This document shows positions 8,188 through 64,000 of a stretch of DNA of 64,000 nt, one piece after another. The stretch is from Phellopilus nigrolimitatus. Its lineage: Eukaryota > Basidiomycota > Agaricomycetes > Hymenochaetales > Hymenochaetaceae. The stretch spans positions 1,072,491-1,136,490 of the forward strand of contig JAJOHG010000008.1 of NCBI GenBank assembly GCA_021029095.1. The letters run 5' to 3'. The notes below the pieces were generated by a model, which was given only the letters and a program-made list of their open reading frames with translations, ran no database searches and was not told the DNA's origin. The translations under genes were made by a program, and so were the position numbers. Numbering within the stretch: position 1 is the stretch's first letter; each line of letters begins with the position of its first letter.

Positions 8188-10165
8188 CTGCAGAAACGGG
8201 TGCCAAAGAAAGAGTATCCGTCAGTGCGTGTACGAATCCACCGGGAGTAGCGAGAACAACGGCCGGAAAACGAGCACAGATTAGAGATCTGGGTTCTGGC
8301 AGGCCGTATCGTCAAAATGGAGGGGCGTGGACTGACCAGTGCTTCGTCGTCGTTGGTTGTCTTGAGGTTGTCGGTGTCGTTCGTTTACTTTGGAGCCTAT
8401 CCAGGGCGGTGTTTGTGACTATTTGGCAAAATCCAGCCGGCCTTTGCCGATTGAAGAAGTCTTGCTCACGGATTTTGCACGCGACTTGCAACAACGCAAG
8501 TCGGTTCGAGAACCAAGTGAGTACTTGAAGCTACTCAAGATCATGAAGTATGTCGGCGGACGAGGGTTATCTCTAACAAGGCTACGTAAAGGCCGAATCT
8601 TCAGAAATATGGTCTCAGAAATGAAGGCTTCGGATACACATGTATCGCACTTGTGTTGGGACGTTGCAGCCGTAACTTCAAATGGACAACGAAAACTCGG
8701 AATTGATAGCCAAAAGCAAACCACCGTCTCCGGAGGATGTCAGTCATGCTTCGGAGTTGTTTTCTGCTTTTTTCCTAGGATGAAGGTAGCGACGTTTCTT
8801 GTTCTCGATTTGCGCACCTTTCGCTCGGGACGACACGCATAAGGAAGGCGGGGAAAAGCCTGCGCACCCAAGTGGTTCAAACATTGCTGGAAAAATATGA
8901 AACCCTCCAATAGGGCCTCATTCAGCGTCTTTCGACAGCGATGCATATACTCAACTCCAATATCTTCGCAACAAATTCACTCAAGTCGTATATATCCGAA
9001 CTACTTGAGCTTTCATCCACAAATTCAGCCGTCGTTATTCTGTCGGGTCGCATGCGGGCTGTCAAGAATTCGTAGTCTTACAAATCGTAAATCTATCGAT
9101 GGGCGAAAACTCAACAACAGCACCGAAGGTTTTCCAACTCTCTGGCTCGGCGCAAGATGCCGTTCAAGACGGACTGATGAGAAATATTGGTGGCTAGATG
9201 TTGGTCTAGACGGCGTCCGAAGCTCTTTTCAATCCTCCTTCGAGACAAATGCTTGGTGCGAGGTAGTGAGGCCGGTTGTGCGCACCGAGATCCGGCTCTT
9301 GAATAGCTCGGGTATAGAAGCAAAAGTCAGGGTAACTCGCTCTTTTCAGATCTTTTGGAGGGCGTGCGCGCCGGTTCTCCGACGCTGACGCGGCTCACAG
9401 AATCTGTCTCTAATCATTTTTCGTGGGCGGAAAGGGGAAGTGCGTAACTGTCGGGCAATCACACTAGCTCACCATATCCGCAGATCTACAGAGACGAGCG
9501 ACGGCATATAGATTGAAACCGGCTAAATGGTGGTATTGCCATTCCGAAAGGTAAAAGCACATCATATTCTCCGAACGCATTCCACTTCGGGACACTGGTG
9601 CTGACGTACAAGCATAATTCAGGCCTGTAACTGTTTGAAGGGAGCAATCGTGGTTTCGCATTGGCAAATGCAACAAAACAGATGGGAGACACGTATGTTC
9701 GCGCCTTGATAACAAACTGCTTTGTCTAATTCGAACTTTTCTAGCCAACCCTTTGTTCTAGACTTTGTCAATTTCGTTGCGGATTCAGCGTCAGTTATAA
9801 AGTCAGTCTCTGGACTCCCTTACGTTGCTCTGGAATCTATCTAACCATGAGTTTTCAACATTCAAGGTAGCTTCCGTCTAATTTTTTCTCTGCGACTAGC
9901 AGTGAGTACTACCAAGATCTGCGTTGTTTACATTCAGATATTGAACTGAAACATAGAGATGGCCCTATTACTCAGCAATTCGTACACGTGAAGTTCTTGG
10001 GATGACTCACCTTCTCGCGTTCGCTGAGGCATGAGCTTGCAAATCCATTTGTGTTTGTCAGAGAGGGACATTAGCAAGAAAGGTGGATTTCGTTTCAATA
10101 TAAGAAGACGATGTCGAGGTATCCACACCTCATCTTCGTATCCACTCGTCCAGTACTTAGCAAAC
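8188..10165. other. Long intergenic stretch with orphan reading frames
   Basis: About 2 kb without a gene I can support. A 150-codon frame at 8390-8842 (+, non-ATG start at 8390) contains DFARDLQQRKSVREPSEYL and looks protein-like for about 70 residues. The opposite strand is open over much of the same interval and no family is recognisable. A 163-codon frame at 8897-9388 (+) is similarly anonymous. The proximal part holds the eL20 promoter and the distal part that of the oxidoreductase at 10166. Confidence 0.5.
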
Positions 10166-11457
10166 ATGCAGGCTCTCGTCACTCTTTCGGATTCACAAGC
10201 TGGCGTGCGCTCAGTGGCGATCCCGCAGCCTGGAGCGAACCAGATCCGTGTACGCGTCAAAGTGGCTGCTCTAAACCCTGTTGATGCGCTTTACGTCGCT
10301 AAACCCGCAGCCCCTCCCGGACGCGTCGTCGGGAGCGACTTCGCGGGCGTTGTGGAGACCGTCGGCGAGGACGCCAAAGGAGCCTGGAAGAAGGGTGCCA
10401 GAGTCGCGGGCTTCCTCCATGGAGGTGCGCATTGCCATCGCTTTTTGTTTGGAAACGAAATTTGACGTATGTATAGCTTGTCAGGAGAATGATCTACCTG
10501 GCGCATTTGCTGAGTTCTTAAGCGTTGATGCAGACCTCGTCTACGGTATTCCAGATACAATGAGCTTTGAGGAAGCTGCGACTCTCCCGCTTTGCATAAA
10601 TACCGCTTCAAATGTAAGCTGTCTGTCGGTTCCTCGAGTTTATTCTGACTGACATGTCGGAACCCAGGGCATCTACAGAGTCCTCTCACTTCCTGCGCCT
10701 TGGGACTTGGCACAATCCCCTACGTCCTTCGGGAAGCGCCCTGCCATCATTATCTACAGTGGCGCGACCTCCGTCGGCTGCTACGCGATCCAGCTTGCGC
10801 GGCTCTCACCAGCCAACCTACTCATCCTTACCACCGCGTCCCCGGACAACGCGGCGTATCTCCGGTCTCTCGGCGCCGACCACGTACTCGACTACCATAC
10901 CCCAGACTGGGCGGCGCAGGTTGCGCGCATCACCGAAGAGAATAACGCCGAGCTTCTTTACGGCCTCGATTGCATATCCGAGGGCCCGACCGTGGGCGCG
11001 CTGAGTCAGGCGTTCAAGGACAAAGGAAAAATTGCAACGGTACGCGGGCCGACGCAGTGGGACGGCGCAGCCGTAAAGGCGGGTGTCGTCGCGGAGTACA
11101 TGGCCGTGTGGACTTTACTCGGGCGGGAGTTTTGGTACAACGGTCTGCTGCCATTCCTTTCGATCTTGGGGACACAGACTCACGATTTTATCTTCAGGCG
11201 GAATTCATTTCCCCGCAGAGCCTGCGCACCGTGCACTCGCGGCGTCCCTTTACGCATATATCTCTGACACGAATCCAGCGTCTCCGATTGTCTCTGGTGC
11301 CCTCAGAGCGAACAAGGTACGCCTTATGCCTGGTGGTCTTGCGGATGTACCCGAGGCCTTTGTGCTTCTCGGATCAGGGCGTGTAACTGAGAGGAAGGAG
11401 ACTGCGACTCTGAGGTCGCTGCGCGCGGAGAAGATGGTGTATCGACTAGAGAAATGA
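10166..11457 (+). CDS. Zinc-less medium-chain (MDR) quinone/enoyl reductase-like oxidoreductase
   Basis: Member of the medium-chain dehydrogenase/reductase superfamily, closest in appearance to fungal ToxD-like enoyl or quinone reductases. Exons: 10166-10424, 10477-10613, 10668-11142, 11198-11457; 376 residues. The N-terminal GroES-like part shows VAALNPVDALY and VVGSDFAGVVETVG, followed by GAFAEFLSVDADLVYGIPDTMSFEEAATLP. The nucleotide-binding part shows IIYSGATSVGCYAIQLARL (a variant glycine loop), SLGADHVLDY, and the C-terminal HFPAEPAHRALAASLYAY and AEKMVYRL. The zinc-binding Cys/His set of true alcohol dehydrogenases is absent. The C-terminus carries about 12 extra residues between GSGRV and RAEKMVYRL. 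A truncated copy lies at 19340. Substrate unknown. Confidence 0.87.
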
Positions 11458-19003: not shown

Positions 19004-19333
19004 GGAGATACTTGTGCCGAAAAGGGTTAGAATATATAAATTGTGAAAGGTTTGGATTTTGATTTGCTCCCGCGTTGATGGGGAAATAGATGTTGATGGG
19101 GAACGATCTGCGGGACTATTCGTGGACGCCCGTTGTAATCGTGTACTTTGGATATGAAGAGAGCAAGGAAAAGGCGGAAAGGAAGAAAGGAAAAAGAAAG
19201 AGCGGCTGTGTGGCTGGGACTCGCCATTTAGGGGAATCATAAGCCGACAGCCGACCACCGACAGCTGCCCGCCGCCGTGTGCAAGCGTGCCGGCCGTAGC
19301 GTAGTCGAAGGGCAAGATCCTCGTGGGCTCGTG
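19004..19333 (+). repeat. Duplicated upstream region, copy A
   Basis: About 330 bp matching 20422-20739 with substitutions and small gaps. Shared blocks include cgaaaagggtta, agaatatataaatt, gatctgcggg, gagcaaggaaaaggcggaaa and gccggccgtagcgtag. Copy B is the upstream region of the GPI-protein gene. Copy A instead runs into the truncated oxidoreductase. Confidence 0.8.
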
Positions 19334-19339
19334 TCGTCG

Positions 19340-20128
19340 ACCTCCGTCGGCTGCTACGCGATCCAGCTTGCGCGGCTCTCACCAGCCAACCCACTCATCC
19401 TCACCACCGCGTCCCCGGACAACGCGGCATATCTCCGGTTTCTCGGCGCCGACCACGTACTCGGCTACCACACCCCAGACTGGGCGGCGCAGGCTGCGCG
19501 CATCGTCGAAGAGAATAGCGCCGAGCTTCTTTACGGCCTCGATTGCATATCCGAGGGCCCGACCGTGGGCGCGCTGAGTCAGGCGTTCAAGGGCAAGGGA
19601 AAAAAATTGCAACGGTACGCGGGCCGACGCAGTGGGACGGCGCAGCCGTAGAGGCGGGTGTCGTCGCGGAGTACATGGCCGTGTGGACTTTACTCGGGCG
19701 GGAGTTTTGGTACAACGGTCTGCTGCCATTCCTTTCGATCTTGGGGACACAGACTCACGATTTTATCCTCAGGCGGAATTCATTTCCCCGCAGAGCCTGC
19801 GCACCGTGCGCTCGCGGCGTCCGTTTACGCATATATATCTGGCACGAATCCAGCGTCTCCGATCGTCTCTGGTGCCCTCAGAGCGAACAAGGTACGCCTG
19901 CGACTCTGAGGCCGCTGCGCGCGGAGAAGATGGCGTATCGGACTGGAGGAATGATGGGCAGTGTATGCCTTTGACTTGTCAATAACGATACATCCGGAAG
20001 TCTTTTGAGAGCAAGTGAACAGGGGATGTAATACAGATGCTGCCCGGGTCTGAAATACGGCAAGCTTGCGTAAATATTCATATAACTTGTCATCGCAGGC
20101 TCTGCGAGCGGACACTGACAGAAATACA
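19340..20128 (+). pseudogene. Truncated duplicate of the MDR oxidoreductase, fused to a foreign upstream region
   Basis: This interval matches 10767-11642 at very high identity, including coding sequence, the last intron and about 185 bp of 3' flank. It starts abruptly inside the nucleotide-binding domain, so the first half of the gene is missing. A 2-base gain in the A-run after GKGK shifts the frame. About 79 bp (equivalent to 11325-11403) are deleted near the C-terminus. The 5' junction is with copy A of a repeated upstream region, and an in-frame chimeric ORF (19277-19651) crosses it. It is a recent segmental duplicate without a complete enzyme. Confidence 0.88.
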
Positions 20129-25075: not shown

Positions 25076-26781
25076 TCACCGGATGATGCTCTGAGACCAC
25101 ATGTCCTCCTCGACGCGAGAGTCAACCTCCTGCTTCCCGAACACCTTGTAAATCCTAATTGAGTCGTCCGAGCCGCACGTCACGAGCCGCGTCCCGTCGG
25201 GGCTCAGGCAGCTGTGCGTGATGCGTCCGTGCGGCGCGTCGAACACCTTGCCCGTCAGCTCCCCGCGCGGGTAGCTGTGCACGAGTATCGAATGTCTCCG
25301 GGGCGCGGGGAGCGCGACCGCGCCGTCCGACGCGGCGAACGCGTACCCGTGCGTCGAGACAATCTCCCGGCAGCTCGGCGCGAAGTGCAGCGAGGTCACC
25401 TGCGAGTTTGTGTTGATGACGAGCTTCTTCTGCCGGCCGTGCGTGGCGTCCCAGAAGCGGATCGCGCCGTCCTTTGTCCCGCCGCCCGTCGCGAGTAGAT
25501 CGGGCGACCAGGGACACCACGCCATCGCTTTCACGGTCGACAGGTGCTTCCGCGCGCGCCATCTGCACCCGAGGCTGTTTAGATCTGTGCTGCAGGCGTC
25601 GGGGGTCTGAGCGCCGCTTGCGCTTGGGCTGGAGCTGAGACTAAATGCAGTGTCTGAGCTTGCGGAGGATGGGAGATCGAGACCGAGGATTCCAAGCGGA
25701 TGTGATTTGCTTGCTCGGGCGTCCCAACAGACGACAATTCCGTCTCCGCCGCCGGTAGCGAGAAACCGCCCGTCGGGGCTCCACTCGACACCGCATATCC
25801 GAGCTTTGTGCGATCTGATATTCTTTCCGCCCTTCGGCACTCGTATGTCGAACTGACGCATCTGCCCAGTCTGGTACCCTACCGTCATCACATTCGAGTC
25901 CTTCCAGCTGAAGTCACCGACAAAGTCCTTCTCGTGGTGCGGCGCAAAATCGCGGACAAGAAGGTGCGAATCAGGCTCGTAGACGCGGACGTGCCCGCAG
26001 TCGTTTCCGACGGCGAGGCTGGCCGAGTCCGGACTCCAGTTGATGCACGTCGCGCTTTCGTCAGGGTTGATGCCCGCGACACGGCCGATGGTCTGCGTCT
26101 TCATGTTCCGGAAGACGACTGAGGATCGCATCGCAACTGCAAGGAGGTCCTTGTTGCTCCAGGCGGCCAGTCGCGAGTAGAAGTCATCATCCAGCCCGGG
26201 CGCGCCGAGGCATGTCTCGGGTGTCGCGCATAGATTTGTGGAGGCTGACGTCGCGGACGGAGGGGTGGGTATCTCGTATAGACTTCTTGTGAGGCGCTGA
26301 AACTCTCTGCGAAAGGGAACAGTATTTCGGGGTTGATCGGCTGGGTTCACGTTCTCTTGCGGCCGGAAGTACAGACGTCTGTCGCCTGCCTCTCCGATTG
26401 CCTTTGCAAGACGGCGAGACCGAGGTGTTGCGCACAGGGGTATCGTATGTTCGGCAGCATCCGCGACGAAGCGGTCGCGCTATATACGCACACATAAGGT
26501 CAGAGAGCGATGTTATGAGAGGTTGCAGCGCACCGAGCTCTTGCCCTTATAGAGTCTTCGCTGCTCACTCGGCCCGGCCAACTCGTCCTGCATGATCGCG
26601 AAGCTGGCCATGGAGCTCCGCCGCCGCTTAGACTGCCCATTGTTTTGTATTCGGAAGGGAAATAGTTTCTTGTCGAGCTTGCATTGCGGGCTCTCGTCGT
26701 CGGAACTGCTCAAGTCCGCTGGTCAGCATCGGCAGCTATGTCAGGAGGACAAGATAAAACGCGTTAATACCTAGCTGGCAT
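25076..26781 (-). CDS. Cdc20/Cdh1 (Fizzy) family activator of the anaphase-promoting complex
   Basis: WD40 substrate-recruiting activator of the APC/C ubiquitin ligase. Exons in coding order: 26771-26781 (11 nt, encoding MPA plus two bases), 26534-26705, 25076-26479; 528 residues. The propeller starts at GLDDDFYSRLAAWS, the conserved entry of Cdc20/Cdh1. It shows CINWSPDSASLAVG, VGDFSWKDSNVMTVGY, ICGVEWSPDGRFLATGG, VKAMAWCPWSPDLLATGGG and LVTCGSDDSIRIYKVF. The chain ends in Ile-Arg, the IR tail that docks on the APC/C. The C-box region reads RDRFVADAAEH instead of the usual DR[FY]IPxR. A Ser-rich insert of about 50 residues lies in the middle of the propeller. It could be the mitotic Cdc20 or a meiosis-specific (Ama1/Mfr1-like) paralogue; the divergent C-box leaves this open. 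Confidence 0.9.
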
Positions 26782-28374: not shown

Positions 28375-30204
28375 ATGCCTGGAACACTTGCTTCTGGTGA
28401 GAACAGATATCGAGTAAAATTCTCTCTGCATATCCCTGATGACAATGTGCAGAATACCCTGCGTGGAAGAAGCTCCAGCAGATCTATGACGAACAGCACT
28501 CGAAGCTGATCCTCAAGGATCTCTTTGCCCAGGATCCTGCCAGGTTCAGCAAGTTTAGCGCAGAGTACACCTCCAAGGATGACCCTGCGACGACGTTCTT
28601 GCTTGACTACTCAAAGAACCTCATCACTGAGCCCATCTTGAACACACTTCTCGAGCTCGTCAAGGAGGCCGGCGTCGAGCAGACCCGCGACGAGATGTTC
28701 AGCGGCAAGCACATCAACACTTCCGAGGACCGCGCCGTTCTTCACATCGCGCTCCGCAACTTCAGCCAATGGTCCATCCCCGTGGCCGGCACGGAGGAGG
28801 TCCCCAAGGTGCTCGACCACATCCGCACATTCTCCGACGCGGTTCGCAGTGGCGCATGGAAGGGCTACACTGGCAAGACGATCAACACGATCGTAAACAT
28901 TGGCATCGGCGGCTCTGACCTCGGCCCTGTCATGGTCACCGAGGCGCTCAGGCCGTACGCGAAGCGCGACCTCACCGCGCACTTCGTGTCTAACATCGAC
29001 GGCACCCACATCGCTGAGACGCTGCGCGCGTGTGACGCGGAGACAACGCTCTTCATCGTTGCGAGCAAGACATTCACGACTCAGGAAACTATTACAAACG
29101 CGGAGAGCGCCCGCGCGTGGTTCCTCGAACACGCTAAGGACAAGGTCCACGTCGCGAAACACTTTGTCGCGCTCAGCACAAACACCAAGGCCGTCACCGC
29201 ATTTGGCATCGCCGAGGAGAACATGTTCCAGTTCTGGGACTGGGTCGGCGGCCGCTACTCGCTCTGGAGCGCGATTGGTCTCTCCATCGCGCTCGTCATC
29301 GGTTACGACAACTTCGAGGCCCTCCTCAAGGGCGCCCATGGCATGGATAAGCACTTCCGCGAGACGCCGCTCGAAAGTAACCTTCCCGTTCTCCTCGCCG
29401 TTGTCGGCATCTGGTATAACGACTTCTACGGCGCCCAGACCCACGCACTGCTTCCGTACGATCAATACCTGCACAAATTTGCCGACTACTTCCAGCAGGG
29501 TGACATGGAGTCCAATGGCAAGTCCATCACCAAGGACGGGAAGCGCGTCGACTACCAAACCGGGCCAATCCTCTGGGGCGCAGCCGGGACGAACGGCCAG
29601 CACTCGTTCTACCAGCTCGTGCACCAGGGCACGAAGCTCATTCCCGCCGACTTCCTCGCACCCGCAACGACGCACAACCCGATCTCCCACTCGAAGCACC
29701 ACCGCATCCTGCTCAGCAACTACTTTGCGCAGCCCGAGGCGCTCGCGTTCGGCAAGTCGGAGGAGCAGGTCCGCGAGGAGCTCGGCGCCGGCGCGTCGGA
29801 AGCCCTCGTCAAGTCCAAGGTCTTCGAAGGCAATCGTCCAAGCAACAGCATCATATTTCCGTTGCTCACACCGTCGACGCTTGGTGCGCTCGTCGCGCTC
29901 TACGAACACAAGATTTTCGTGCAGGGTGCAGTGTGGGGTATTAACTCCTTCGGTGCATATAATTCTATTTATTCGTTCGCTAGTGGCTGACTGCGATATC
30001 CGTAGACCAAATGGGTGTCGAGCTCGGCAAGGTCCTCGCAAAGGCCATCCTTGCACAGCTCGAAAAGCCATCGGACGTCGTGGGCCATGATAGCTCTGTG
30101 AGTGTTCCTGACTCTGTTAATCTTATCGCATCTTTTCTAATTCTTGGTCAATGCCGCAGACGACCGGCCTCATTCACTACTATCAGAAGTACCGAAAGGA
30201 GTGA
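28375..30204 (+). CDS. PGI1: Glucose-6-phosphate isomerase
   Basis: Cytosolic interconversion of glucose 6-phosphate and fructose 6-phosphate in glycolysis and gluconeogenesis. Exons: 28375-28396, 28453-29952, 30006-30097, 30160-30204; 552 residues, the normal length. The N-terminus MPGTLAS joins to [15 protein letters not shown]. Diagnostic elements present are [25 protein letters not shown], the signature [34 protein letters not shown] with the catalytic Glu and Gln region, NPISHSKHH, and [15 protein letters not shown] at the second splice junction. Codon use is strongly biased to C-ending codons, as expected for a highly expressed gene. A polyadenylation-like AATAAA follows at 30228-30233. 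Confidence 0.98.
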
Positions 30205-30795: not shown

Positions 30796-33700
30796 ATGAA
30801 AAACACCCTTGACGACGTCAGCTCCGACTCGCAGCCGCCGCCTCCGAAGAGAATCAAGCTCGAGACAGAGTAAGTATTATGCAAGAGTATCACGAGCGCG
30901 CATTAACGAGTTCCGCAGCGATGCGCAATTGCTATCAGGGTCAACGAAGAAGGGGAATAAGGGGAAGAAGTCGAATAAAGCATCGAAACTCGAAAAGCGT
31001 GCTCTGGGTCTACTGCAGGACCCGCGCATTAGCGCTGTCGAGCCGCAGCAGGTGATGTGCAGGATGTGCGGCCACTGGGTCAAGCTCTTCAAGCATACCG
31101 AGTTCTCCCCGGCTAACTGGAACACGCACGCGGAGAAGTGCGAGATCCGCTCGGGGTGAGTGACTTATAGTCTTATCCGCTAGTTCCGGCGGAGGGCTGA
31201 TGATTATCATGCGAACTGTCGCTTTAGGTGGAAGCTGCGCATCCAGAACGAGCCCGGGAGCACGTATACACTCACCATCCCTGCCGCCCCTCCCACTCCC
31301 CAGCCGAAGAAGGAACTTCCGTCCGGGCGCTATGTAAAAACGTCAGAAGAACGGAGGATAGAGTTGGAAGCCGACGAGCGCGCGGGGGCGCGAGAGGCGC
31401 ACCGCGTATTCTGCAAGTTGTGCGGTGTTTGGGTCAGGCTGCATAACACGCGTGAGTACGACCTGTGGAACTGGACAAGGCACGCGGACAAGTGTCAACA
31501 GAAGTTCGCGCTGCCTGCTGTGCCGTTCCCGATCCCGGAAGACGACTGGAGCATAGGATCGTCTTCCGCTACCCCTCCTGCTACTAGGCTTGAATCTCGG
31601 GTTACCACGTCGCCTGCGGTCAGAATTGAACCTCGGGTTACCACGTCGCCTGCAATCAGACTTGAATCTCCGGGCATGTCGCCGCCCACTGTGACGCACG
31701 AACGTCAGTATACTACTCGGCCTGCTATAATACGTGAACGTCGGATTCCCGTGCCGCCCGCTGTTAGACTTCGATATCAAGCGGCCGCGCTGCCCTCTCC
31801 GCCTGCTTCCAGGCTTCAAAATCATAATTCCTTGCCGCCTGCGAGCGGATCTGACTATCAGATTGCTACTCCGTCTACTGCTGAGCGTGAATCTCGGGTT
31901 CCCGCCACGCCCGTAGTCGATTTTAGGAATGCCGTTCCGCCGGCAGTTGAATGCGAGCCGTGGAATAATGCTCCGCCCACTGTCGAGTATGAACCTTGGT
32001 CTGCCATTCCTCCCGAACCTCAGTGGGCTTCCGCACATCCTGAGCCTTGGCATGCTGCTCCATCTACTGTCGAATGTGAGCCTCGGATTGCCACGCCGCC
32101 TGATATCGAGCATGAAATCGAAGCTTCCGTGCCGCCAGACGTCGACCAAGAGCCCCACTTTGATGCGCCACCTCCTGTCGAGTATGCGCCACCCGTTTTT
32201 GAACCTGGGCCTCAGGCTCCCGCGCCTCTCAGTGTCAAACATAAGTTGCGCATAAAGATTCCTCGTACCGTCGAGCCTAAGCCACAGGTTTTCGCGCAGC
32301 CCACTGTCGAGCATGTACCGAGTCCTGTCATTTCTTCCGATGTCGAGCCTGAGCCTTTGGCTCTCGCGTCTTCTGATGTCCGTCGTTCTGAATATGACAT
32401 AGCCTTTCCGTCCGCCGTCGAGCCTGAGCCTCAAGAAACTTCCAACGCGTCCTCCAACAAGCCTATACCTCAAGCTGCCATTCGGTTCACCATCGAACCT
32501 GAACCTCAAGCTGTCTTTACATCCGCCATAGAACCTGAACCTCAAGCTGTCATTGCGTCCGCCATAGAACCCGAACCTCAAGTTTTTGCTCCGCCCGTCA
32601 TCGAGCCTAAACGTCAAATGATCGTCGCGTCCAATATCGAGCCTGAACCTCAAGACCACGTTCCTACCGCTATTGAGCTTCAAACCCAGGTTGCCGCGCT
32701 ACCTGTCGCTGAACACGAAGCTCCTGCTTTGGCAATACCGGTAGTCGAACCTGAATCTCAACTCGATGTTCCGGACTCAGAAATGGCAGAGAACTCTCAG
32801 AGGGAAGCACCTGTTGTTGCCGGAGAGACCGGCGAGGCCAGTGGTGTGGAACAAAGGTACGTGTGTGACTTCCTCTCAACCCCCTTCAACTTCCCGACAC
32901 TTCGGATCCAGATCCTTCATGACGACTTTTCCGCAAGTCAAGGTCGAAGCAGAGGCGGACGATATGATGCTCATGTACCCTGTCGCAACGGAAGATGAGT
33001 TTACTTCTGCTTCCTCCAGACAGCGTAGAAAGGGACGCTCTGTAGAGGAGAGACGTCAGTCCTTCCTCGATGACCCGCGTTGCGGGGAGGTTCGCCCGCA
33101 TGAGGTCTTCTGTCTCTCGTGTAAAAAGTGGATTAAACTCTACAAAGAGGTAGCCTACATCGAGTCGAACTGGGTCCGTCACATCGAACGGTGTAGCGTG
33201 CGTATCAGCAGGTTTGTTCATTCCCAGATCTATCTTATGCTACTTCGTAATAATCACATACGGATATGCAGCAAACAAGCCAAGGCTAGCTCATCGAGCG
33301 CTCCAAAACCCACCATCCCGCGAATTATCGTCCCAAAGCCTATCATTCCGACACCACTTTCCGCGCTTGCAGCTACATCAGCGTCCTCTGCCGGTGGCAG
33401 TAGAGGCGAAACTTCTAAACGCGGGCCCGCGAAGAATGTAGAGCAGCGCCTGCAGGAGCTGCAAAGCGATTCACGCGTTTCAGAGATCCAGCCAAATCAA
33501 GTGCTTTGCGGAGTCTGCAAGCAGTGGATTAAACTCCAGGTCTACAGAGAATACGACACGTGGAACTGGCGGAAGCATATTCCACTGTGCGAGCAGCGTC
33601 ATTCGTACGTACACAAGCTTCTCAAACAATTCTAAAAGTTTATCCATTATCTGATAATCATTAATCTACTTTGTTAAATAGTGCTCAGAATAGCTCGCTT

Positions 33701-36700
33701 CAACTACATCCCGGTGTGAAGCTCGAAGAGCCCGAATCCGAGTCATCTTTGATCAGTGCACTTCGAACAGCCACTTCATCGACTGCTCCATCAAAGTATT
33801 CTCATGTGAAGGTAAAAGACGAAAGCAGCCCAGAGGAACGAAGGGAGGAACTAGAGCGTGACGGTCGGTGCGAACGCATCGAGCCGCACCGAGTCTTCTG
33901 CAAACTCTGCATGCGCCAGGTCGGTCTGCACGTTAAGAAAGACTATTCCCTATCGAACTGGTATAGGCATGTCAAAAGTTGTAGTAATAAAGCGATGAAG
34001 TTAGTGATGAAAACATTTGATACCTCTATATGTACTGATATTTTTATTACCCTTTTTAGAGCTGCGAAGGCACCTTTGAAGACACCACTGACCGCTCTCG
34101 GAATCACTCGCGCCGCCGCCGCTGCAGCGGCAGTGGATACTTCATCATTAGCCGGCCCTTCTACTTCTGCTTCGGCGCCTCCGATGCAAATCGATTTAAC
34201 ATCTCTAGAAGGCGTTACCATCAAACCGGAAATCACACCTATCTACACAGACACGCAACTTAAGAATGCCGATGAGCGCAAGAACAAGCTCCTCACTGAT
34301 CCGCGCGTCGGTGATTTGGAACCGACTCGCGTGTTGTGCAAATTGTGCCAGCGCTGGCTGAAGCTGAGCAATGATATGGAGTACGCACCTTACAATTGGT
34401 ACAAGCATATCTCGAGGTGTGAGGAGAGGTCTAGGTAAGTACCAGATCGTCCGATGTTATCCATATCTGATTACGCGATTACTAATACATTTCTATCTTC
34501 AGGACGGGCACGTCTGCTGCGGCGCCGATCGTCGTGAAAGAGCAGTCTCCGGAGGTGCAGCTACTCGATGTTCCTCCGTCCTCGTTTAACTCAGGCAGGC
34601 GCAAACGGTTCACGGCTGCGGAGCGTCTCGAGCGATTGCAAACAGACTCGCGGATCAAGACGATTGAAAAGCACAGAGCGCAGTGTGGACTCTGTAACAA
34701 GTGGGTGAAGCTGCAGAACAAGACCGAGTACGATCCGCACAACTGGTTTGCCCACATCAAGAAATGCGAGATAAAAGCGAGGTACATTCTTAGTCATGCT
34801 CGCCTCACTTTCGCCTCATGCTGACATGTTTTGTAGACCACCTGCGCCTCCTCATGAAGCGCGCACACAAGCGCTCAGCCTACCGTTACGCGCGCTTGAG
34901 GATTCGCCCATGTGGAATGACTCCGACTCTGCATCGTGTGGCATTGCTGAGTCATTGCTGCATAGTAATAACAAAGGCGGTCATATTAGTGACGATACCC
35001 GCCGTCAGATCCTCGAGACCGATACCCGTTCTTCAGTCGTTGAGCGACACCGCGTTCTCTGTGGTATCTGTCAACAATGGATAAAACTTCGAGACGGAAA
35101 AGACTACGTCCCGTATAACTGGTTCAAGCATAAAAACAAGTGTGAAAGGAAGCACGCGTAAGTGGATTCGATGGCTTTGTTTGTTAATGATCGTCGGTAG
35201 CTGACTTAGGAACTGGTGTCCCAGGCTTCCGCGGACTCAAATTCCGGTCATACAGCAGCCTGAGCCCTCTGCCGCTGCCGTCAAGCAGGAGCCCGTCGCG
35301 ATTGATCTCAGCTATGGATCACGTAAGAAGTCGGATGAAGATCGCGCTGCTGAACTCCGCGCAGATCCACGGTTAGGGGACGTCGAGCCCGGACGGGTCT
35401 TCTGCAGGATGTGCAACAATTGGATCAAGCTTAACATGGCGACAGGATATTTGCCGAGCAATTGGCTGCGTCATGCTCAGAGGTGCCAACGAAAGTCGAA
35501 GTGAGTTTGCGTTTTGCTCTGCTTGTCCAGCGCTGTCCTGACGTCGTTTTTGTTTATCTAGTTGGCAAGGCGAGTTACCTTCAGCCGGTGCTGAACCTCC
35601 TGAACTTCAAGCTGTGGAGGTCATTGACCTAGAGTCTGATTCGGGAAATGGTGTATTTGGTTATATTGAGCTTGGACACCTTGTCAGTGCATTTGAACCT
35701 TCGGTATCGTCTACAGACTATGGTGTCAGACCTTCAGAGATGCCTGAGGTTCTACAGATACAAAAAGAGACACCGATTCGGAACATCCCAACGCTGCGTG
35801 CACGTAATTCAAATACACCAACTCTTTCGTCTTCAAACGAGCCCAAAATCTCAGATTCCGGCAAGCGTATGCATCGCACAGAAGAGTCTCGCAAGGAAGA
35901 GCTCAAGAGTGATCCTCGCACGAGCAGTGTGCTCCCCAACAAGATCCTGTGCGGAATGTGTGATCACTGGATCCAGATGCGCCGTGATGTCGCTTATAGC
36001 CCACAGAACTGGCTTAAACATGCCGGGATCTGTGAAGTGCGGTCTGGGTGAGTGTCCACGAAACTATCGTTTACTTTTTTATTGGTCGTCTTCTAATGCT
36101 TTTTACCTCTCCAGTTGGTTGAAGAAAGCAAATAATGGTGTTTCTCTCAAGTCTGTTACGTCAACCAATCGCATCCAGAAGGAGAACGAAAATGAACTCC
36201 CGTACAATGCTCGGATTCACATGGAAGTTGACGAGGAAGAAATCCCTAAGCCTTCAGTTCCCTTGTTCAAGCCGGTGGATTGGGAACAAGAGGTGGTTTT
36301 TTCCGACGATGACGATGAGGACGAGGACGAGGACGAGGACGACGTGCTAAGCCCAGAAATACCTTTGGACGCTGAGCCAACAGTATTGCCAGTATCTGAA
36401 TCAGGAAATACGTCCGCGGGGATAGCGATCAAGATTGAGGAAATGTCGGCTTCCACTGATCTGCTCTCAGATAAATGGAAAACTTCCACGGTCCCAACAC
36501 CGCTGACACTGCTACGCGCGTCTAAAGCGAAGCGCCCAGTGACTAACGCGAGTGCCAGTTCTAGTGCTTTGGCATCGAGACCCAAAAAGACGCCTTCGAA
36601 ATCGCCGTCGGCTTCGGCGACGCCCACGCCTTTTACGACTGTCCCGCTCCCGCTTAATCGTCCTTCAATGTTTTCACCCGTTCCGTTTTTAGTCCCGAGC

Positions 36701-37420
36701 GGGGCATTGGCGCAGCCTACTCTTACACCTATGCCGCTTTCATCGCTCGCCAGACCGAGGTCGCAGTCGAACACCAGCAATACGCCAACAGCGCCAGATG
36801 TGCTTGATCCAGGGCTCGTGCCCGTCATGCCCAGTTCGATCGCACCTCACCTGCATCCACACCCGCGCCCGACGCCAATGCCCCCTTTCGGCCAGACGCA
36901 CTTGTCTACCTCGCCCGCTCAGTCTGACGCTCCTCATCCTGTCCAGCCCTCTCCGGTTACGCCTTCTGCTACTCTTCCTACTCCGCCCGCAACTGCGTCC
37001 ACATCGGACCATTCGGATCACAGTCATACATTAGACTCCGCTACTTCCTACCCTTTTTCGTCCATGTCTGCATTCATGTCCCCTTTGCTGCCGACGGACC
37101 GTGCAAAGGAAACGGTCGCTTCGGTAGCAGCGGAGCCTGCTTCTGTGGCGAGGAGTCCGACGAGCCCGACATTGACGACGTCGGTATCAGGGTCCAAGAA
37201 TGTCAAGTCGAAGTCTAAGGCACGGTTTGCCACGTCTCCACATAGCTTCGGCTACGGACCCGTCAAGCCAGGTGTTCTCCAGCTTGCGCCCACGCCCGCC
37301 CCGACGGCAACGTCGCTGGCCACGCCGTCGACACCTACCGCGCAGTTCGACACTCCCGACGTAGAGATGGGCACAGAGCTCGACTTCAGCAAAGGCTCAG
37401 AGGAGCCGATGTCGGTCTAG
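30796..37420 (+). CDS. Giant protein with ten tandem CCHC modules, one per exon
   Basis: Exons: 30796-30869, 30919-31155, 31228-32856, 32912-33211, 33272-33604, 33682-33999, 34060-34434, 34503-34781, 34837-35157, 35225-35500, 35562-36047, 36115-37420; 1,977 residues. Exons 2-11 each contain one module: a charged helix with a DPR-x3-VEP-like stretch, then [VFAIQ]-x-C-x2-C-x2-W-[VIL]-x-L-x5-[YF]-x3-N-W-x2-H-x3-C (for example CRMCGHWVKL followed by NWNTHAEKC). Module 5 has Gln for the first Trp (CMRQVGL) and module 10 has Met for Leu. Four invariant C/C/H/C residues suggest a zinc site. Exon 3 also carries about 450 residues of Pro/Glu-rich repeats (VEPEPQ-like). The last exon has an acidic Asp/Glu run and a long Pro/Ser/Thr tail. 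All eleven introns are phase 2. Basic KR patches suggest a nuclear, perhaps DNA-binding, protein. Family not recognised. Confidence 0.9.
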
Positions 37421-60600: not shown

Positions 60601-62194
60601 TTGTGCCCGTAAGTCAACTCACTGTCTCGCTGTATAGGATCATGCGCAATCCCGCTGAGCATCGTGAACCGCGAGTTTTCGTCCAAACCGAAGCGCTCGC
60701 CCATCCAAGGAAAAAAGTGCGTGAGACTGTAATGCCTTCCACATACGCCCTTCGGGATTCCCGTGCTGCCCGTCGTGAACGAGAGGGTGCCGACACTATC
60801 AGGGCCAATGACAACGTTCGGATCGATGTCGGCCAGATGCGTGTGAGCCTTCAGAACGTCGTTCGTCAGTCCTGGGGTAACACCACCCACGATGGATCCG
60901 TCGGCGAGGAGCTCAAGAGCAGGAACTTCGACACGAATATTCACTTCTGTGGAGATGAATTCTCGGACGGTCGGGCTGAGCACACCGGCGCCCTTCAAAA
61001 CGATAAGTGCGCGCGGTTTCGCGACTTTGAGATAGACCGTCTGACGAGTTGGTGGGTACGCAGGGTCTTTGTGCGTATTAGTTTATAGTATGTAGTGACA
61101 TTGTGAAATAATGTGAGCGTACCGATGACAGAAAATGTCGCTCCGGCTTTCAGTACGGCCATCACGGCAACGACAAGGTCAACGCTGCGATGTGCGTACA
61201 CCATCACAACCTCTTCGCGCTGCACACCATTTTGTAGAAGGTGGTGCGCAAGGATGTTCGACGCGTTCCGGATCGCACTGTAAGTGAACACTATCCGCTC
61301 GTGCGTCGGCGTGTACTGGATCACGCAGGGCCTATCGGGGTGCTGGCGCGCATTTCGCGAGAAGACATCCGTGATCGCGCCTTTGAAGTCGCACCAATGC
61401 AAATCCGCGGTGGGGTCAGGCAACCGTGCGCGCTGAGCGGGAGTCAGAAGTGGGATCGAGCCTATAGCTGCCAGGGGCGAAGAACCCAACTTGCGCAAAA
61501 GAGCAGAAAGCTGATCGACAATGCAGGTGATTCGAAGCGGCGTGAATAGGAGCGAGTTGTACAAGATCCTAAGCGAGATGTGCGGTGCGAGTGAAGCGCG
61601 GGACGAGGCGGCGGCTGTGGGACGAACTATGAAGATCGTCAAGTCGGATGTCAGACTCGTCGAACGTATAAATTCATCCTGAGGCTCGTCTGTCTCGTCG
61701 AAGAAACGCACTCGGAAAAGCGGACGCGAGTCGTCTGTCTTTAATGCGTCCACGACAGCCTCGAACGGCACCGGATCCTCCTCGACCTCCTTCTCGACCT
61801 GCTGCACTCGTCGTACGACCGCCCAGAACGGATCTGTGGGATCGACAGAAAGCCTGAGCAACAGAGGATCGCTTGCAGATGCTGAAGAAGAGGCAATTAC
61901 GAGGTCTGTGTCGCCAGTGTATCTATGCAGCAGCACGACGAACGCAGCGAGCAGGAGATGGAACGCCGACGGTCGATCTTTGGCGACATCTTCCGGCTCA
62001 TCCTGGCCGTCTTCGGTATCGTCGAACAGAGCAAGCTTGAGCAGACTGAGAGAGGCCTGTTCGCTGAGCTCTACGGTCTGTACGGCCTCAACGACCTTGC
62101 TCGTTCCTGACGGCCTCGGGTAGTCTGTCGGCAGCGCTATCGCCGGCAAATTTTGCAGTCTCGAAAGCACGCGCTGAAGGCGAGCGTCGCCCAT
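57602..62194 (-). CDS. LYS2: L-2-aminoadipate reductase (alpha-aminoadipate reductase)
   Basis: NRPS-like enzyme that activates alpha-aminoadipate, tethers it and reduces it to the semialdehyde in fungal lysine biosynthesis. Exons in coding order: 61123-62194, 60623-61066, 59578-60567, 58644-59509, 58235-58580, 57602-58176; 1,430 residues, in line with Lys2. An N-terminal condensation-like part comes first. The adenylation domain shows [38 protein letters not shown] and [29 protein letters not shown] closes the domain and [14 protein letters not shown] carries the phosphopantetheine Ser. The NADPH reductase domain shows [17 protein letters not shown], the catalytic YGQSK and [15 protein letters not shown]. 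The start [15 protein letters not shown] was preferred over an in-frame upstream extension with no family resemblance. A separately encoded phosphopantetheinyl transferase would be required. Confidence 0.97.
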
Positions 62195-64000
62195 GCTACA
62201 GGCCACCCGGAGAGCAGATGACCGTCTCAATGAAATTCTCCTTCTTTGCTCACTCAGGCCGAAATTTCGGCCGTTCGGGCTTGACTCACTCGTGCCAATT
62301 AAGGAAGTCGCAAGGACATTTTGGGATGAGAATTTAAATCTAAGGTGGCGAAACATTCTCGTTGGATTCTTTTTACAAACGAACCGCTGTGGTCTGTGAA
62401 TTTCATTTTTGGATTTGAGAAGTATCGGTTTGCCATAACGTCTCGCATGTGTATTCCAAATTTGTTAACAAGGCGGCTACCCAAGCTTTTCCAGCCACAT
62501 TTAATATTTACGTCAGAAAGTTCCGAGGACTAATTTTGCAGGATCTATTATTATAAGGCACCCTCGATTTCTCCTGAATATCAGGGGAAGGGGAAATCAA
62601 AAGATTTAAAAAAACCGACATGATCACGTCGGTCTCTCAGCTTCCTGGCCTGCTCCGTCAGACTTCTCAGCCGACGGAGGATGAGCAAAGCATCAGCAAA
62701 GCTATTCTCGGCTCAGCCGGATTGATATGCATGAGTACCTACGCACTCTTATTCTAGTCTTACGGGCTTGGACTATGGGCGCTAAGCGGAGATGAGCAGG
62801 TTAAGCACCTGTAAAATTGACATGCATTAGCTCCTTGCATACTTACACGATCTAACCACCTTTGCAGCGCCTTGCACGAGTCAAATAATACCTCTCAAGT
62901 AATATTACATTTTTCTGATGGAATTAGGCGTATCATATCGGCATTATCCTCGTTGACGTCCCTCAGCAGTTTCCTGCCAGATGAGCTGCCGCCGCTGACG
63001 ACTGCCCCCGAGCGCCGCTTCCTAATTTAAGCACGCCATCTGCTCACTCGGAGGCCATCAAAGCTCCCGATAATCAACTTCTGCTTGTCTAAACTTCGAG
63101 TTCTTGAAAACGCCGCGAAGCTCATCAGTGGATATATTTCTACTGCCACACTCCTGGATTTCAAGGCGTGCTCGAGGAGGGCAATCAGTAATAGTGCGAC
63201 CAAAGCGCTGTTGGGATCGAAGTCGATCCCTCCCTATCTTCTGTTTCATTTACTTCTTGATTCATTAATTGTCCGGCGGAAGAGACGCCCTTATGCCGGC
63301 TGCGAAGTACAAAGTAATTATGACTCTGAATAGCATTTGCTTGTCTCTTATTTTATATTTGGGTCGGGACCGGGGGGTGTAAGGCACTTCTAGGTAAACA
63401 TACAAGCACTCTTTTATTATTATCGATTGTTTCGTTTACACGAGTTGTCACCTTGCATGATTCTCGTGGCCATATCGCAATATATACTTGCAAATAGGAC
63501 CTATGTACACAGATCAGATACAATCAACGACAACGCGACGACAATGACAATGACAACAGAAAATCCAAATCCAAATAAAAATCCCGGATATAAGATATGA
63601 CATACAAAACGCCAAGAAAAACAAAGAGAGAAATTAAAGGGGAGTGGGGTGGCATATAGTAGCACTTGCGCACAATTGGCCAGCCTGTGATAGATTGGCG
63701 GACTGCTCAGGCCCGTAAGCTCATTTTTCGAACGTACGCGCTTCGAGGTCCAAATAGGATGCTCCGCCCTCAGACTGCTGCTCGTTTCAGACAGGGTACA
63801 ATCCAAAAGAGCAGGTTAGGCGATGAGTCAATTAGCAATTGATATCGCCTGTACGCACGCTCTTTCTTTTTGGATCGTATCCATCGGTCATGGTCTCCGT
63901 GTTGACTGAAATGTTGACTACGCGAGGATTTAAGCTCTATAAAGAAATAATGGCACATGTGCGATTAATACTTGCATACCAGAAGAGATAGCATATCGGC
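62195..64000. other. Right-end intergenic region
   Basis: About 1.8 kb without a gene I can support. It includes the LYS2 promoter and a dispersed-repeat copy. Short frames at 63085-63333 (+) and 63501-63806 (-) are anonymous. Confidence 0.55.
62727..62910 (+). repeat. Dispersed repeat, copy 2
   Basis: Matches the reverse complement of 12075-12246 over its whole length with many substitutions. Best-preserved blocks are gtaaaattgacatgcattag with the ctcctt word that follows, and gagtcaaataatacctctca. It is 50 kb away and in the opposite orientation. Confidence 0.6.

Follow-up and report, generated by a model that had tools for sequence, protein, structure and literature searches.

The stretch of DNA analysed here (the window) comprises 64,000 nucleotides of the wood-decay basidiomycete Phellopilus nigrolimitatus (Hymenochaetales, Hymenochaetaceae; assembly GCA_021029095.1, contig JAJOHG010000008.1, positions 1,072,491 to 1,136,490 of the forward strand) and contains, on its plus strand at 30796..37420, a gene whose product carries ten copies of a cysteine- and histidine-containing module, a putative zinc finger. 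The gene starts with an ATG at 30796 and ends with a TAG stop at 37420, exactly as placed by the initial annotation. According to the predicted splicing it is composed of 12 exons (30796-30869, 30919-31155, 31228-32856, 32912-33211, 33272-33604, 33682-33999, 34060-34434, 34503-34781, 34837-35157, 35225-35500, 35562-36047 and 36115-37420), which are separated by GT..AG introns of 49-77 nt and read as 1977 codons plus stop, without a single internal stop in the resulting protein of 1977 amino acids (aa). All 11 introns are in phase 2 and all ten internal exons (exons 2-11) are divisible by three, both as previously claimed; if the phases were equally frequent, eleven introns of one given phase would have a probability of (1/3)^11, which is a rough figure only. 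One deposited paralogue model was mapped, and has intron phases 2,0,2,0,2,2,2,2.

Each module is encoded by its own exon, all on the plus strand: module 1 at 30965..31153 (exon 2), module 2 at 31325..31507 (exon 3), module 3 at 33018..33206 (exon 4), module 4 at 33414..33605 (exon 5), module 5 at 33809..33994 (exon 6), module 6 at 34253..34432 (exon 7), module 7 at 34591..34782 (exon 8), module 8 at 34970..35155 (exon 9), module 9 at 35319..35498 (exon 10) and module 10 at 35857..36045 (exon 11). The pattern C-x2-C-x19-H-x3-C has ten matches in the protein, compared with a mean of 0.001 and a maximum of 1 in 2000 shuffles of the same protein, which bears out the number of copies first reported. 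The module itself is longer than originally delimited: it extends over approximately 57-60 residues and starts some 22 residues N-terminal of the first Cys. Ten of ten modules retain Arg, Asp and Arg N-terminal to the first Cys, all four ligands and an Asn-Trp pair; at least nine retain two Leu, a Tyr and the Trp that follows the second Cys (majority consensus EERxxELxxDPRxxxVEPHRVxCxxCxxWIKLxxxxEYxPxNWxxHxxxCExR). The Trp first described as fixed is missing from module 5, in all six proteins where this module was seen. The charge of the helix ranges from 0 to +4 across the ten modules, and the linkers between them are 39 to 109 residues long, with one of 495.

The distance between the last Cys codon and the splice donor is 14 or 17 nt in nine of the ten module exons, in agreement with the claim that each exon's module ends just before the splice site; exon 3 departs from it, since 1361 nt lie between the end of module 2 and the donor. 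This interval holds a Pro/Glu-rich stretch (31590..32582, plus strand) with 36-nt tandem repeats at 31590-31670 and 32467-32582, and the first Cys residues of modules 2 and 3 are spaced 548 aa apart, versus 179-235 aa in the three ten-module relatives described below. The last exon (36115..37420, plus strand) encodes about 435 aa of C-terminal tail, in which neither a module nor a Pfam match was found. A scan of the window with Rfam at gathering scores gave no matches.

A whole-protein search among candidates of approximately 1087-3460 aa (7986 scored, threshold E <= 0.001) found three proteins, from Coniferiporia weirii (P0001, 63% identity), Sanghuangporus vaninii (52%) and S. weigelae (51%; P0002 and P0003 for Sanghuangporus), with identities taken over residues 680-1545. 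All three, representing two genera, have exactly ten modules. Among the four proteins, modules at the same position share a mean identity of 0.76, a value raised by the two alike proteins of the close congeners P0002 and P0003, compared with 0.39 for modules at different positions within one protein; between species the modules are 0.73-0.79 identical and the linkers 0.34-0.48. In a tree of 79 modules (P0003 left out), the modules of the window protein, P0001 and P0002 group by position, giving one clade for every one of the ten positions with support of 0.58-1.0. The protein of Rickenella mellea (P0004) has eight modules, which are nearest to 1, 2, 3, 5, 8, 6, 7 and 9 in that order; the 8-like module thus stands ahead of the 6-like one, with a tree support of only 0.68. 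Because the ten modules correspond one to one in the relatives and Rickenella has eight, the array, judged by these alignments, was in place before these genera diverged, and whole modules seem to be the unit in which its composition changes. The one-to-one retention of ten modules in four species, together with the dN/dS ratio given below, supports the earlier view of an old array under selection. The only deposited protein found for the window locus (P0005) is a partial one of 406 aa with modules 9-10 only; a Fomitiporia model (P0006, 629 aa) and a second Phellopilus protein (P0007, contig C624) likewise contain modules 9-10 only. All three may be truncated models of the gene in public annotation.

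A duplicate of the gene, 84-94% identical, is present on contig C624. It lacks 369 nt (34795..35163 in the window, plus strand), a stretch that takes in the larger part of intron 8, all of exon 9 and the opening bases of intron 9, and therefore lacks module 8. Both ends of the deletion are intronic and share AGT, so that they can also be read 3 nt further left; the fused intron retains GT and AG, and the same junction is found on C624 and C446. Module 8 is present in the three relatives, hence its absence from the duplicate represents a loss: the duplicate lost exactly exon 9 as a unit, by deletion between the flanking introns. Exons 1-8, 10 and 11 of the duplicate contain no stops in 1416 codons, and exon 12 is more diverged. 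Identity is 91-94% in exons 1-3, 94-97% in exons 4-8, 88% in exons 10-11 and 79% in the matched part of exon 12, and this step at the lost exon suggests gene conversion or a mosaic origin of the C624 copy. A third contig (C441), 98.2% identical, ends inside the gene and is probably an allele of it.

Comparison of the window gene with this duplicate shows that the modules are under constraint. The ratio of nonsynonymous to synonymous substitution rates (dN/dS) is 0.18 in the nine shared modules and 0.62 in the linkers (Fisher p 0.002 for nonsynonymous against synonymous changes), although the contrast owes partly to a higher dS in modules (p 0.001), particularly in modules 9-10 (0.47 and 0.36), where the copies are less alike. 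In the duplicate, none of the 36 ligand codons encodes a different residue.

The clean loss of one module exon supports the proposed architecture of repeated exon duplication, as do phase-2 introns after some, though not all, modules of other genes. Donors were scanned in other module genes of the same genome for phase-2 candidates 8-14 nt after the last Cys and followed soon by an in-frame stop. Such donors were found at two of the four modules of locus L032 and at two of three in L029/L030, with L035 and L037 falling outside the pattern; in the C18 gene (P0009), whose deposited model was mapped to DNA, a phase-2 splice lies directly after the first and third modules. Other modules count against this: no such donor was found at the other two modules of L032, nor at the second and a fourth module of the C18 gene, and the third of L029/L030 as well as L031 and L036 have phase 0 only.

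The linkers are rich in the motif [VILF]KxE, which we take as the SUMO-acceptor pattern. The window protein, P0001, P0002, P0003 and P0004 have 7, 6, 7, 8 and 5 linker copies, respectively, where 0.64-0.94 are expected, and these counts were reached in none of 2000 shuffles for any of the five. In the same proteins the reversed motif occurs 1, 1, 2, 3 and 0 times and [VILF]RxE 2, 0, 0, 1 and 0 times; Rickenella has two further forward copies inside modules. For comparison, 120 further module proteins, excluding P0005-P0008 and with modules masked by a looser pattern, contain 12 forward and 11 reversed motifs in 47404 linker residues. Three of the sites align with one another across the four proteins of ten modules. 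To our reading of the motif, this enrichment of candidate SUMO sites in linkers is a new observation. Between modules 9 and 10 lies the linker motif VEVIDLE (VIDL at 35620..35631, plus strand), which we liken to a SUMO-interacting motif (SIM) and which is present in all four ten-module proteins, reading LEVIDLE in Sanghuangporus; SIM-like motifs counted in the same proteins were not enriched. The N-terminus carries PPPPKRIKLE (30835..30864, plus strand), a putative monopartite nuclear signal that contains an IKLE SUMO-site motif. The pattern PPxK[RK]IK[LV]E, which resembles the c-Myc nuclear signal, occupies an equivalent position in all five proteins, the four with ten modules and that of Rickenella. 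The linker of modules 9-10 (35562-36047) also holds a stretch like FGYIELGHLVSAFEPSVSSTDYG (FGYIELG..EP..SSTDYG), with similar stretches in Coniferiporia, Sanghuangporus and Fomitiporia; by eye it is better kept than other linkers.

The structure of module 6, predicted as a metal-free model, reaches a predicted local distance difference test score (pLDDT) of 87.1 and consists of an N-terminal helix, a beta hairpin with the Cys-x2-Cys, a short third strand and a C-terminal helix with the His-x3-Cys, so that the ligand residues lie on hairpin and helix. A fold search with this one predicted module returned no clear match in the PDB (all Z < 4, Foldseek E >= 0.71), and the absence of a family from the results of such a one-module search is no evidence against that family. 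The initial annotation held that the module matches no class that could be named, and stated that a profile match to a described family would count against its reading. Such a match exists, and the novelty of the module is reduced accordingly: Pfam PF14616 (Rua1_C) scores 67.1 bits against the whole protein (cut-off 27, E 2.2e-18). The best-matching stretch covers only profile positions 74-121 of 122, in the last third of the domain, and single modules match weakly (six of ten at E <= 1, best E 0.00059). A Rua1_C search of the Phellopilus genome itself, with five candidates scored, gave four matches, on C179 and C626, with no exon of the array gene reported. The Rua1 gene on C626, under our own splicing, ends in a finger of the form C-x2-C-x2-W...W-W-K-H-x3-C, in which 23 residues separate the second Cys from the His and which is interrupted by an intron. 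A profile of 404 modules aligns to exactly this last finger, though weakly (hhalign probability 13.9). Judged by these profiles, the module is a finger of the type that closes Rua1_C, probably a distant relative of it, and not a full Rua1_C domain. Rua1 is presented in PMC7673458 as a zinc-finger transcription factor regulating cellobiose lipid synthesis.

A profile search, which had been proposed earlier as a check, showed that the module recurs in many Agaricomycetes and that Pfam already covers it in part, with a Rua1_C label on 39 of 120 relatives among the matches listed. Compared by one shared profile, 115 of 128 module proteins have four modules, and the profile of the ten-module proteins finds L032 (contig C168) and other loci in the Phellopilus genome. 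Most of P0011-P0128 resemble one strongly conserved, unnamed four-module protein with a winged helix in the single model built, and this protein is seemingly a core gene of Agaricomycetes. A fold search with its 580-residue model returned mainly winged-helix matches and barely probed the finger part.

Based on these features, we consider it on balance probable that the array is a conserved single gene of the Hymenochaetales encoding a nuclear multi-zinc-finger protein, which acts at DNA or chromatin, is tuned by SUMO and would likely be a transcriptional regulator. Each module of about 57 aa would bind one zinc and offer a mildly basic helix, and the modules would contact DNA or chromatin at several separate points; the long linkers argue for several separate contacts instead of one continuous site as in closely linked C2H2 arrays. 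The linker SUMO motifs, which are partly conserved, and the single SIM-like motif suggest that activity is probably set by SUMO. Starting from a finger widely distributed among Agaricomycetes and remotely similar to the one that closes Rua1_C, the copying of phase-2 exons would have produced the array. The open gene structure, its conservation and constraint, the loss of an exon as a unit and the motif enrichment are direct observations; zinc binding, nuclear location, contact with DNA or chromatin, control by SUMO and the course of duplication are inferred from them.

The same features also allow a protein-interaction scaffold, in which the fingers would bind partners instead of nucleic acid and the linkers would recruit SUMO pathway proteins. 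The long linkers with SUMO motifs and VEVIDLE, the FGYIELG..EP..SSTDYG stretch seen in relatives, and modules that differ from each other yet are conserved by position, as for different partners, all fit such a protein; the likeness to Rua1_C points to nucleic acid, however, and we regard the scaffold as rather unlikely. Binding of RNA at several points, through modules like the single U1/matrin-type fingers of SF3A2, ARS2 or TUT4, appears improbable: a common small-finger arrangement would suffice for fold scores that all stay below a Z of 4, with Foldseek E values of at least 0.71, and the sole characterised sequence relative, Rua1, is a transcription factor. That two or more genes, or wrongly joined exons, were taken as a single array is very improbable, even though the deposited protein P0005 is partial and the Fomitiporia model P0006 has the same two modules, because each of the three deposited models of Coniferiporia and Sanghuangporus places all ten modules, at co-linear positions, in a single protein, and each exon join in the window gene keeps the frame.

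Building on the chromatin-associated finger protein favoured above, we tentatively propose, as a possible but less than even reading, a SUMO-decorated chromatin hub specific to the Hymenochaetales. In such a hub the finger would have been multiplied to ten by phase-2 exon duplication, with each copy fixed to its own target; SUMO sites absent from the four-module family would have appeared in the linkers, and the array would evolve by exon gain, loss and perhaps relocation through recombination in the short introns. The loss of exon 9 in the duplicate and the 8-like module ahead of number 6 in Rickenella (support 0.68) are cited for it.

Several other genes were recognized in the window. A phosphoglucose isomerase gene (28443-30200; PF00342, 723 bits over the main exon) is located directly upstream of the array gene on the same strand, and no phosphoglucose isomerase match was found within 27 kb around the C624 duplicate. 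Two similar zinc-dehydrogenase-like stretches are located at 10028-11267 and 19232-19985, and a portion of the first was checked against Pfam. On visual inspection the second repeats some of the first's sequence, split between frames, and may therefore be a broken copy. The minus strand encodes a CDC20/Fizzy-type WD40 protein (25076-26479) and an AMP-binding/condensation-type protein (60995-62464).

No description of this array was found in the titles and abstract openings of the open-licence PMC papers listed, and as far as these searches show, this protein of ten exon-encoded modules, rich in SUMO motifs, is a variant not described before, with a module class that is partly known. It exposes a finger that is common in Agaricomycetes and described only partly by Pfam, and makes it possible to test whether a finger array restricted to one lineage is linked to SUMO signalling.

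Among known systems, the C-terminal region of Rua1 from Ustilago maydis, regulator of ustilagic acid (cellobiose lipid) synthesis, shares the finger C-x2-C-x2-W ... W-x2-H-x3-C, and the Rua1_C label is precomputed on P0001-P0004 too; in contrast, the best-matching stretch misses the first half of that domain, the Rua1 of the same genome has 23 residues and not 19 between second Cys and His, and the window gene has ten copies. The four-module family (e.g. P0011 from Scleroderma, P0042 from Taiwanofungus, and L032) carries the same module by profile, but has only four, the first one weak, shows no SUMO-motif enrichment in its linkers and, in the P0011 model, has a C-terminal winged helix that was not found in the window protein. 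The CW-type finger of MORC3 aligns over its C-x2-C-x2-W-x-K-L ... W segment, and a PDB sequence search with the module profile returned four sequences, all MORC3 CW fingers (E 0.39-0.67), while the Pfam zf-CW profile matched one of ten modules at E 0.06 and none significantly. A CW origin was dropped because the ligands and helix differ, the third and fourth ligands of the module being a His and a Cys on a helix, and because the scores are not significant. BED-type (ZBED) fingers gave no zf-BED Pfam match at E <= 1, either to the whole protein or to any of the ten modules. Retroviral-type zf-CCHC knuckles have the spacing C-x2-C-x4-H-x4-C, unlike the C-x2-C-x19-H-x3-C of all ten modules. Tandem C2H2 arrays, which have classical C2H2 spacing and short linkers, resemble the array in their growth and loss through duplication, whereas the window protein is without C2H2 spacing and has linkers of 39 to 495 aa. 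Clear arrays with one module per exon are known mainly from animals; the Phellopilus gene represents a fungal array of this kind with short introns, and its duplicate shows a naturally occurring exon deletion with legible breakpoints.
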